Positions 1,337-6,689 of a stretch of 64,000 nt of DNA are shown here, one piece after another. Source of the DNA: Symploca sp. SIO3C6 (GTDB lineage Bacteria > Cyanobacteriota > Cyanobacteriia > Cyanobacteriales > Coleofasciculaceae); contig JAAHHJ010000004.1 in the NCBI GenBank assembly GCA_010692425.1, positions 123,680 to 187,679 of the forward strand, written 5' to 3'. The notes under the pieces were generated by a model, which saw only the letters and a list, made by a program, of their open reading frames with translations, searched no databases and was not told the DNA's origin. Within the stretch, counting starts at the first letter, position 1. Each line of letters opens with the position of its first letter. The translations under genes were made by a program, and so were the position numbers.

Positions 1337-1393
1337 ATGTTCAGTAGCAGTTATTATTTTTACTTTTGGTTTAGGGAGGTTCACCGGTGGTGA
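1337..1393 (+). CDS. putative aromatic leader peptide 1 (18 aa): MFSSSYYFYFWFREVHRW
   Basis: ATG 1337, TGA 1391-1393; YYFYFWF run; directly followed by a terminator upstream of DAHP synthase. Confidence 0.72.
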   Translation: MFSSSYYFYFWFREVHRW

Positions 1394-1425
1394 AGAGAGT
1401 TCCCAATGGAACCCCCCGGTGGACC
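1378..1425 (+). promoter_or_regulatory. putative antiterminator 1
   Basis: ggttcaccgg (1378-1387) pairs with ccggtggacc (1416-1425), 10 bp with one G.U; encloses a gttcc/ggaac hairpin (1399-1412); covers the 5' arm of the terminator at 1422. Confidence 0.6.
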
Positions 1426-1456
1426 GCAGAATAAAATCTGCGGTCTTTTGTTTTTT
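1422..1456 (+). terminator. intrinsic terminator 1 of the leader
   Basis: 9-bp perfect stem gaccgcaga/tctgcggtc, loop ataaaa, followed by ttttgttttttc. Confidence 0.8.
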
Positions 1457-1480
1457 CAAGAAACTAAGTGATAGAAGCAA

Positions 1481-1549
1481 ATGATGACAATCTACTTTGG
1501 CAGTTGGTTTTACGGTTTTTATTTTTGGCCCAGATCTAGTTCCGGGTAG
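1481..1549 (+). CDS. putative aromatic leader peptide 2 (22 aa): MMTIYFGSWFYGFYFWPRSSSG
   Basis: ATG 1481, TAG 1547-1549; 9 of 22 residues are Phe/Tyr/Trp; stop codon overlaps the 5' arm of antiterminator 2. Confidence 0.78.
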   Translation: MMTIYFGSWFYGFYFWPRSSSG

Positions 1550-1581
1550 GTAAAGTCACGTCTTTTCGCTATCACCCGGAA
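1540..1581 (+). promoter_or_regulatory. putative antiterminator 2
   Basis: ttccgggt (1540-1547) is perfectly complementary to acccggaa (1574-1581), mutually exclusive with the terminator at 1574-1604. Confidence 0.65.
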
Positions 1582-1604
1582 CCCATAGGGAACCGGGTTT
1601 TTTT
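1574..1604 (+). terminator. intrinsic terminator 2 of the leader, 30 nt upstream of the DAHP synthase ATG
   Basis: acccgg-aa-ccc-ata-ggg-aa-ccgggt hairpin followed by a run of 7 T. Confidence 0.8.
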
Positions 1605-1634
1605 GTACACATTCTAGAGCAGGAATTTTGACCA

Positions 1635-3170: not shown

Positions 3171-6100
3171 CTACAATCTCTTGAGACGATCGCGCAAAAT
3201 TTCTGCTTGCTTTTGAGCCTCTGTCAATTTCTCTTTCGCCTCCTGCACTACTGCTTCTGGTGCTTTACTCACAAAGTTTTCATTACTCAGACGCCCTGAA
3301 AGGGCTTTAATTTCCCCTTCCACCTTGCCTAAGTTCTTTTCTAACTTAGCGCACAGAGCATCTACATCCACAACGCCAGCTAGGGGAATCAACACTTGCA
3401 CAGTGCCGACAACACCCACCATAGTTGTCTGCGGTTGGGTTTCTAAGGCTGGAGTAATAGTCAATGTCTCTACCTTAGCTAAGTCTTGAATGTAAGATTT
3501 ACCGGCTTCAAGAATTTGATGTTCTTCACTGCTACTAGTTTCCAGGATAGCCTCTACCTTTACTCCTGGTTTAATATCTGCCTCTGCCCGCAAGTTACGG
3601 ATAGTACGAATTGTACCAATCAGCAACTCGAATTGTTGCTCTAGTTCTGGATCTATTGGGATCTTATTAACTTCTGGTTGGGATTGCTCTAATGATTCGT
3701 TGTCTGTTAATTCTGGTTCTGGAGTAGGTACTACAGGCTCAATGCTAGTTAATTGTGGTTCTGTTTCTGGTTCTGGAGTAGGTACTACAGGCTCAATGCT
3801 AGTTAATTGTGGTTCTGGAGTGGGTTCTACAGGTTGAGTATAATCTATCTTGCCTAGGGTCTGTTCTTTCAGCAATCGAGTTGAGGCTGCTAACTGTTGA
3901 CGATTCTTAGCTAGGAGTAAATGACGGCTACCAAACCAAATCGTGTATCCAAAACCAATTAGTTTAAAGACATCGGGTAAGACGGGGATGTTGTTGATAG
4001 CACCAATGGCAGCTAGCACTACTTTGACGATAATTATTGCTCCTAGCAGGAAAACAACTACACTCAGTGCTTTTTGGTTTTGCTCAAAGAATTTGCTGAC
4101 ACTATCGGGTAATTCAGATAAAAATCTAGCAGCAAGCTCCCCAATTTTCTGAGCCTGAGTTAAATATTGGTTGCTTACAGGTTTTTGCTCAGTGGTATCT
4201 TGATTACTAATACTGCTTGCTTCAGTTTCAAGGGGAGATTGAGATACTTCTGATGGGGAGGGAGTAGTAATTAAGGATTGGGTAGTAGAAGATTCTTGCT
4301 CTTTCTCAAGAGGAGATTCGAGTATAGTTTCACCAGGCTCTGTTTCCGCAGGAGCTGGTTGAATAAATTCAGAGATTTCTGGAATTTCTGGATAAGCCTG
4401 TAGTGCTAAAAATTCTTTAGGTTGAGGTAAGGAAGAATTATCATTATCATCGTTACTAGCACTACTCGATAGTTGCTCATTACTAAAACTTCGCCCATGC
4501 AACATCTGCCAAAGTTCTTCTGTGATGTGAGGCATGAAGGGATGAAGCAATTTAAGAGAACCTTCGAGTATGTAGGCAAGGGTTTGCTGTGCCAGTAATC
4601 TTGAGGGGGAAGTTTCTTCCTCACGCAGCCTAGATTTTACTAATTCAATATACCAATCGCAGAAATCACCCCAGATAAATTCATAAATACCCTTGGCTGC
4701 CTCTCCCATGCCATAGTTATTGAGGTATTCACTATTTTGCAGAGTTAATTGATGAAAGCGTGATAAGATCCAGCGATCGCTTAATTCTAATCCTACCCAA
4801 CCCTTAGTAAAGGGAGAACCTAACTGTTGGGGTGTTTTGCCATCTAGATTCATCATTACGAATCTAGAAGCATTCCAGAGTTTATTGGCAAAGTTGCGTG
4901 AAGCCTCTACCGAGAGTGACTCATCAGTTTTGCGGTCATACTCGAGGCGAATATCTTGACCAGCCCCTACCACTTCTCGAATTAAAGTATAGCGTAAGGC
5001 ATCAGTACCGTATTTATCGATTAGGATCAGTGGGTCAATACCATTATTTGCCGACTTCGACATCTTCTTCTTGTTTTCATCCCTAACTAAGCCATGGATG
5101 TAAACAGTTTTAAAAGGCATTTGACCTGTGAAATGTCCTGCCATCATTGTCATTCTGGCAACCCAGAAGAAAATGATATCAAAGCCTGTAACTAAAGTTG
5201 TGGTAGGATAATAAGTCTTTAAGTCTGCAGTTTCTTCTGGCCAGCCCATAGTGGAGAAGGGCCATAATCCTGAAGAAAACCAAGTATCTAGGACATCATT
5301 GTCTCGCTCTAACTTGACATCTTCTCCAAATTGTGACGTCGCCTTCTCCGTTGCCTCTTCCTCACTACTAGCAACTACAAAAGGCGTTTCATCAGTAATT
5401 TCGCCACCAGTTTCACTAACTGCATACCAGGCAGGAATTTGATGTCCCCACCACAGCTGACGGGAGATACACCAATCTCTTAACCTTGCTAGCCAATCGC
5501 GGTAGACTTTAGTCCAGCGTTCTGGTACAAATACTGGTGAATCCTGTTGATCTAAGAAATTAAGGGCGCGTTCAGCTAAGGAGCTAATTTTTACAAACCA
5601 TTGAGTTGAAATTAGAGGCTCCACTGGAACCTTACCGCGATCGCTATAGGGTACTGTATGCTTATAGTCCTCAATTTTGACCAGAGAACCTAAGGTTTCC
5701 AGCTCCTTAATTACATTCTTACGGGCTTCAAATCTATCTTGTCCTTGGAACTTACCCGCATTTTCATTTAAAGTCCCATCCTTATTCAGGATATTTATAA
5801 AGGGCAGATTGTGGCGTTTGCCCATCTCAAAGTCATTAGGATCGTGGGCTGGTGTCACCTTAACACAGCCAGTCCCAAATTCAGTATCTACTAACTCATC
5901 AGCAATAATCGGAATTTCACGCCCGACAATGGGCAATTTTACCGTCTTACCAATTAATTTCTGATAGCGCTTATCTTCAGGATTGACAGCAACTGCAGTA
6001 TCCCCCAACATAGTTTCTGGACGAGTTGTCGCCACTTCCAGATAACCCTTACCCTTACTAAGGGGATAGCGAAAGTGCCACAGATGCCCATCAACCTCCT

Positions 6101-6689
6101 TATTTTCTACCTCCAAATCTGAGATAGCCGATTGAGAAGCTGGACACCAATTCACCATATAATTACCACGGTAAATTAGTCCTTCTTCGTAGAGTTGGAC
6201 AAAGGCCTTAAGTACAGCTTTGGATAAGCCTTCATCCATGGTAAAGCGTTCTCTTGACCAATCAGCCGAGACTCCTAAACGCCGCAGTTGATTAACAATT
6301 CTCCCCTCAGAATCTGCTTTCCACTGCCATGCCCTCTCTAGAAACTTTTCCCTACCCAAGTCATAGCGAGTTTTACCTTCTGCCTGTAGCTGCCGATCAA
6401 GAATAGCTTGCACGCCGATGCTAGCATGGTCAGTTCCCGGCAACCAAAGGGTATTGCGCCCCTGCATACGGTGATAGCGCACGAGAGTATCAATGAGTGC
6501 GCTCTCGAAGGCATGCCCCATGTGTAAGCTCCCAGTAACGTTAGGGGGCGGAATCACAATGCAATAGGGTTCGCCTTCGTGATTGGGATCAGCTTTGAAG
6601 ACTTGATTTTCTTCCCAGTAATGCTGCCACTTGGCTTCTGTGGTTTTGGGTTCGTATTTGCTTGCCAGGGCGGGATTAGTTGTACTCAT
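3171..6689 (-). CDS. valS: valyl-tRNA synthetase with inserted CAAD membrane domain
   Basis: [15 protein letters not shown] and KMSKS signatures; two-TM segment ([22 protein letters not shown] ... [13 protein letters not shown]) between the catalytic core and C-terminal coiled coil. Confidence 0.96.
3715..3835. repeat. intragenic tandem duplication in the valS linker
   Basis: ggttctggagtaggtactacaggctcaatgctagttaattgt present twice; encodes repeated [14 protein letters not shown]. Confidence 0.8.

Follow-up and report, generated by a model that had tools for sequence, protein, structure and literature searches.

Tandem Phe/Tyr/Trp leader-peptide attenuators predicted upstream of a short cyanobacterial DAHP synthase gene

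Results

The DAHP synthase locus

The DNA under study is a stretch of 64,000 nt from Symploca sp. SIO3C6 (GCA_010692425.1, contig JAAHHJ010000004.1, positions 123,680-187,679 of the forward strand), called here the window, and coordinates below are counted from its first letter. It holds a gene for a type I-beta DAHP synthase, which bears out what the original prediction had proposed for the gene 3' of two micro-ORFs. The region upstream of this gene contains a predicted promoter and two units, each with a leader peptide, an antiterminator and an intrinsic terminator:

1259-1288, + strand: predicted sigma-70-type promoter TTGACG-N18-TATGGT with extended -10, from sequence and conserved position; predicted transcription start at about 1295
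1337-1393, + strand: leader peptide 1 (LP1), MFSSSYYFYFWFREVHRW and stop, from translation and ortholog conservation
1378-1387, + strand: antiterminator 1 (AT1) 5' arm, within the LP1 codons V-H-R; 95% of cells paired and 26 double-changed in 40 diverse loci
1380-1394, + strand: hairpin UUCACC-GGU-GGUGAA over the LP1 stop, which may act as a protector (anti-antiterminator) or in pausing, -5.8 kcal/mol
1416-1425, + strand: AT1 3' arm, overlapping the 5' arm of terminator 1, from pairing conservation
1421-1456, + strand: intrinsic terminator 1 (T1), stem 1421-1446 and then a U-rich tract to about 1456, from pattern scan, folding and conservation
1481-1549, + strand: leader peptide 2 (LP2), MMTIYFGSWFYGFYFWPRSSSG and stop, from translation and ortholog conservation
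1539-1547, + strand: antiterminator 2 (AT2) 5' arm, its last base being the U of the LP2 stop, from folding and conservation
1556-1561, + strand: GUC(A/G)(U/C)G motif (GTCACG in the window), a candidate for RNA polymerase pausing at a fixed offset from the LP2 stop
1574-1582, + strand: AT2 3' arm, overlapping the 5' arm of terminator 2, from pairing conservation
1574-1605, + strand: intrinsic terminator 2 (T2), stem 1574-1598 with an internal loop, and U tract, from folding and conservation
1635-2501, + strand: putatively controlled gene, type I-beta DAHP synthase of 288 aa (TIGR01361/NF006421 match)

Upstream of the leader lies a gene for a pentapeptide-repeat-like protein (427-945, + strand), and a valyl-tRNA synthetase gene is found at 3171-6689 (- strand). 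The synthetase has a long insertion containing a membrane-like segment, which presumably resembles the CAAD insertion of cyanobacterial synthetases.

The protein encoded at 1635-2501 lacks the N-terminal ferredoxin-like regulatory domain PF18152. Three more DAHP synthase genes were found in the same genome, on contigs C246, C213 and C239 (L162, L163 and L164), the C246 copy with a fused trpE-like gene some 2.7 kb away. Both of the paralogs tested contain PF18152, and the third has a similar N terminus by eye. The closest solved structures to the short protein include 1zco and 3pg8, which we take to be the enzyme from Pyrococcus furiosus and one from Thermotoga minus its regulatory domain. The Pyrococcus enzyme has been described as a "minimalist unadorned barrel" in a paper that also refers to unregulated type I-beta enzymes (PMC6435475). 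The short isoform is therefore likely to be feedback-insensitive, since it lacks PF18152 and resembles these unregulated enzymes.

Conserved aromatic leader peptides

The translations of the two micro-ORFs agree exactly with those first proposed, with nine Phe/Tyr/Trp residues in each. They are two of the three short + strand ORFs of the 64 kb window that have at least 7 aromatics per 10 residues; the - strand has none, and dinucleotide shuffles give 0-1. To follow them in other species, 110 loci were collected from relatives whose genomes encode a closely homologous DAHP synthase, and duplicates were then removed. Both leaders were present, in the same order, at 87 of the 93 orthologous loci with enough upstream sequence, where the enzyme has 280-290 aa and the LP1 and LP2 stops are separated by a median of 147 nt. 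The LP1 consensus is M[F/L]xxxxYFYFWFxxVHR[E/G/R], with UGA as stop in 87/88 loci, and the LP2 consensus is MTYxSSWFYGFYFWPRxSSG, followed by UAA or UAG. Judging from the conservation, the true LP2 start may be the second ATG (1484) or, in some species, an upstream GTG or TTG.

Phe, Tyr and Trp all occurred in both peptides at all 87 loci compared. Furthermore, the non-consensus codons in the aromatic columns comprised 66 synonymous changes, 75 changes to another aromatic residue and 37 to a non-aromatic one, when random single-base changes would be expected to give roughly 1:1:5-7; these are counts of sequences rather than independent events, carry no formal test and indicate that the aromatic codons are under selection. 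Thus, both enrichment and codon-level conservation mark the short ORFs as rich in codons for the amino acids of the pathway concerned. None of the three LP2 peptides queried matched an NCBIfam leader-peptide family. A minus-strand ORF overlapping unit 1 (1235-1480) was set aside, as conservation tracks the plus-strand frames.

Terminators and competing stems

By folding, an intrinsic terminator does follow each micro-ORF, as originally predicted, with energies of -16.8 kcal/mol for T1 and -13.7 kcal/mol for T2. A simple pattern scan had found T1 alone, because the T2 stem contains an internal loop. The two competing pairings were also present: AT1 has the 10 bp first assigned to it, and AT2 proved to have 9 bp (1539-1547/1574-1582), not 8. 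The LP2 stop was correctly placed on the AT2 5' arm, with which UAG (1547-1549) shares its U; the LP1 stop lies 3 nt beyond the AT1 5' arm. Antiterminator scores equal to or above those observed appeared in only 1/2000 and 5/2000 shuffles.

The original prediction had named covarying stems in related species as a check, and all four stems show compensatory changes. Pairing was kept in 93.9% (AT1) and 94.0% (T1) of cells among 43 non-redundant unit 1 loci, and in 94.7% (AT2) and 88.0% (T2) among 53 non-redundant unit 2 loci, figures that are favoured because the structures were defined on sequences within the alignments. The double changes, in contrast, can be seen by eye. With distant orders included, there were 26 double-changed cells in AT1 (shuffle mean 5.6), 10 in AT2 (2.6) and 21 in T2 (7.1), and compensatory changes overall were found in 10 cells of T1 and 21-26 of T2. 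In all four stems the double changes exceeded those of every one of 500 shuffles, and slid controls were far lower in the percentage paired. The AT1 core, for example, changes from CACCGGG to CACUGGG, CGCC, CACCGAG, CACCAGC or CACUAGG, its partner matching each time. A terminator conserved with covariation thus lies between each leader ORF and the DAHP synthase gene.

The UUCAC...GUGAA hairpin over the LP1 stop is paired in 98.5% of cells with zero double changes, so covariation does not prove it; the use of UGA by LP1 versus UAA/UAG by LP2 is consistent with this hairpin but is not proof of it. Additionally, the GUC(A/G)(U/C)G motif occurs at the same offset after the LP2 stop in 81 of the 88 motif-bearing loci, and a UGG is found 13-14 nt after the LP1 stop in 69/88. 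These hairpins and downstream motifs resemble hairpin-stabilised RNA polymerase pause sites and are candidates for such a role. Two other pairings in unit 1, GGCGGUU/AACCGCC (kept in 83% of cells) and an inner GUUUCC/GGAAAC hairpin (no excess covariation), were left out of the mechanism.

Promoter and translation signals

In most loci there is a site of the form TTGAC(A/G)-N17/18-TAnnnT whose -10 element ends about 48 nt ahead of LP1, and this distance was 42-61 nt in 65 of the 70 loci having a site of at least 9/12. The best site scored 8.9 of 12 on average, compared to 7.4 in shuffles. Both units would then lie within the DAHP synthase transcript, and the conserved position of the predicted promoter upstream of both argues against a transcription start downstream of the attenuators. 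A Shine-Dalgarno-like sequence precedes LP1 in only 1/88 loci, which counts against the attenuation reading; an AGGAG-like sequence often precedes LP2, just past the U tract of T1.

Folding with the ribosome at different positions

When complete unit 2 was folded at equilibrium, the terminator was favoured in nearly all cases whatever the position of the ribosome, and therefore the switch must be kinetic. In E. coli trp, likewise, the terminator stem is stronger than the antiterminator stem. Full-length equilibrium folding cannot discriminate the states of unit 2, and transcripts cut just after the terminator 5' arm were used instead, with a ribosome footprint of E. coli size kept free of pairing. 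Placing the ribosome at the stop codon brought the probability of the antiterminator to 0 in 88/88 unit 1 and 91/91 unit 2 sequences, a result that is partly built in, since the modelled footprint covers the arm. With a stall 1-5 codons before the last Trp codon the mean probability rose to 0.83-0.99, and at the last Trp codon it was 0.64-0.67. In both units the antiterminator arm follows this codon at a distance of about 9-14 nt, so that the codon is near the final stall position at which the arm stays open.

In these models, antiterminator and terminator are mutually exclusive, with the arm masked at the stop and free upon stalling. The proposal that a finishing ribosome would mask the arm and a stalled one free it, made at first for the second unit, thus holds in the folded orthologs and extends to both units, as a ribosome at the stop covers the antiterminator arm in each.

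Distribution in cyanobacteria

We also surveyed 388 genomes of the phylum, using covariance models of unit 1 and unit 2 and a protein search. Our sampling is dominated by Nostocales. The short DAHP synthase was found in 40 of the 388 genomes, from 28 genera, with unit 1 in 39/40 and unit 2 in 39/40. In other orders of cyanobacteria both leaders were again found upstream of the short DAHP synthase, the weaker matches being checked individually. Conservation of the aromatic ORFs and stems in relatives, the other check named at the outset and the most powerful one here, is therefore seen across carriers of the enzyme, which suggests that the paired leader circuit is old and widespread in cyanobacteria.

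No genome had more than one match to a covariance model, and every match examined in detail precedes the short DAHP synthase or its remnant, apart from a marginal unit 2 match in G409 (E 0.0097) that was taken as chance. Beyond these and G143, described below, the models matched none of the remaining genomes in the sample. The attenuators are thus linked to one DAHP synthase isoform only. Consistent with this, neither the remaining three DAHP synthase genes of the Symploca genome nor its trpE, pheA, leuA, ilvB and hisG genes have a comparable leader. A terminator before trpE seems to be that of the gene ahead of it.

The sole genome with a convincing unit but without an intact gene is G143, where an intact unit 1 (L165) precedes the decayed remains of a DAHP synthase gene and seems to be an orphan regulator left after gene loss. 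Additionally, some 6 kb separate both units of G458 (G458:C1:3950368-3957504) from a partial match to the enzyme that covers residues 73-276, which points to an interrupted gene.

Discussion

Conserved aromatic codons, covarying stems, a predicted promoter and the folding logic all support the attenuation reading of the tandem leaders. We consider it about 90% probable, on sequence and modelling, that they are two serial transcription attenuators, both ribosome-mediated and both responding to charged tRNA-Phe, tRNA-Tyr and tRNA-Trp. Both would be part of a DAHP synthase mRNA leader of about 340 nt, and in each unit a ribosome would translate a short peptide in which Phe, Tyr and Trp are abundant. 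With all three tRNAs charged, the ribosome would reach the stop codon and cover the antiterminator 5' arm, so that the terminator would form and transcription stop. A shortage of Phe-, Tyr- or Trp-tRNA would stall the ribosome at or before the last Trp codon; the antiterminator would then form and RNA polymerase read on. As the polymerase would have to pass both gates, the output would be the product of two read-through probabilities, and the series arrangement would leak little and respond more steeply when any of the aromatic amino acids becomes scarce.

Arrest by the nascent peptide, as in TnaC, would also make use of conserved peptides, which would stall the ribosome in response to a free ligand, for instance one of the aromatic amino acids, and not to uncharged tRNA. 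The order of residues (YFYFWF, WFYGFYFWPR) is indeed conserved beyond what a simple codon count needs. However, Phe and Tyr interchange at many positions, the non-aromatic C-terminal codons coincide with RNA pairing arms, and stalling by abundant aromatics would raise the expression of a biosynthetic gene, which is the wrong direction; we regard such arrest as unlikely. A general sensor of translation rate or of antibiotics, with amino-acid specificity of minor importance, would work through the same stems, as any ribosome stall upstream of the arm favours the antiterminator. This is still less probable, because selection keeps Phe, Tyr and Trp codons before the first enzyme of aromatic synthesis. 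Least probable of all is that a riboswitch or protein senses the aromatic amino acids and the ORFs are incidental: the RNA structure is strongly conserved, but so are the ORFs, the aromatic codons, synonymous Tyr codon use and the position of the stop relative to the arms, the structure consists of competing helices with no compact conserved core, and no Rfam 15 family, leader families included, matched at its gathering score (chance-level matches only, E up to 5), which speaks against a known RNA family.

Attenuation through a leader peptide is a classical mechanism. The leaders of E. coli trpL-trpEDCBA, pheL-pheA and pheST (PMC11802643) likewise combine a peptide rich in the regulated amino acid, a competing antiterminator and an intrinsic terminator; these proteobacterial systems have a single unit for each operon, and each of their leaders reads one amino acid, whereas the cyanobacterial leader has two units in series before DAHP synthase, each with codons for Phe, Tyr and Trp. 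Corynebacterium glutamicum aroR-aroF (Neshat 2014, via PMC11802643 and PMC4046766) also places a leader before a DAHP synthase gene. There, aroR is reported to contain Phe-Tyr-Phe, and ribosome stalling to raise transcription (PMC11802643, PMC4046766). Compared by its published description, this actinobacterial system differs in having one leader, a short aromatic run and a reported response to Phe but not to Tyr. The uORFC-13-1 motif before Acholeplasma aroF is a predicted uORF-terminator attenuator of a DAHP synthase gene too, but it has just one uORF, which contains one or more Phe codons, is not in series and is confined to Acholeplasma and unassigned environmental sequences (PMC8632094). 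Two short ORFs in one leader RNA, each with its own attenuator, are known from Salmonella mgtCBR, where mgtM and mgtP sense different signals, ATP and proline, with additive effects on an operon for Mg2+ transport and virulence (PMC3641672). In contrast to that pair, the two cyanobacterial leaders do not differ in signal by their codon content (Phe, Tyr and Trp in both, 87/87), and both units have an intrinsic terminator.

A 2016 survey considered cyanobacterial attenuation to be without reliable data (PMC4833913). The open-access literature yielded nothing later on the subject, though a prior description in subscription papers is possible. Similarly, no description of a same-signal tandem attenuator was found in the open literature or Rfam. 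Within these sources, what is new is the phylum and the same-signal tandem architecture.

Our analysis thus describes a predicted leader-peptide attenuator, conserved and covarying, that is present in 28 genera of the sampled genomes, in a phylum previously said to have no reliable data on attenuation. It raises the question of why two gates reading one signal should be stacked, could help to show whether cyanobacteria couple transcription to translation and bears on how shikimate-pathway flux is controlled. The leader is a possible target, too, for engineering aromatic production in Nostoc-type strains. Because the putatively regulated isoform is without the ferredoxin-like domain that the two tested paralogs have, the data suggest that control has shifted from protein to RNA.

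A more specific and tentative proposal, to which we give somewhat less than even odds, is that the two units form an AND gate for the same signal. Multiplied read-through would make DAHP synthase expression strongly cooperative to Phe, Tyr or Trp scarcity, each unit would have its own programmed polymerase pause (a hairpin and, at a fixed distance, GUCAUG or UGG) that synchronises ribosome and polymerase, and the circuit would replace the feedback control of the missing allosteric domain. If so, transcription and translation would be tightly coupled in the cyanobacteria that carry it. Lastly, natural single-unit variants occur, with unit 1 only in L166 (G049) and unit 2 only in G234 (L144) and, apparently, in L022 and L169 (G113). 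Such variants should be useful for comparing one gate with two.
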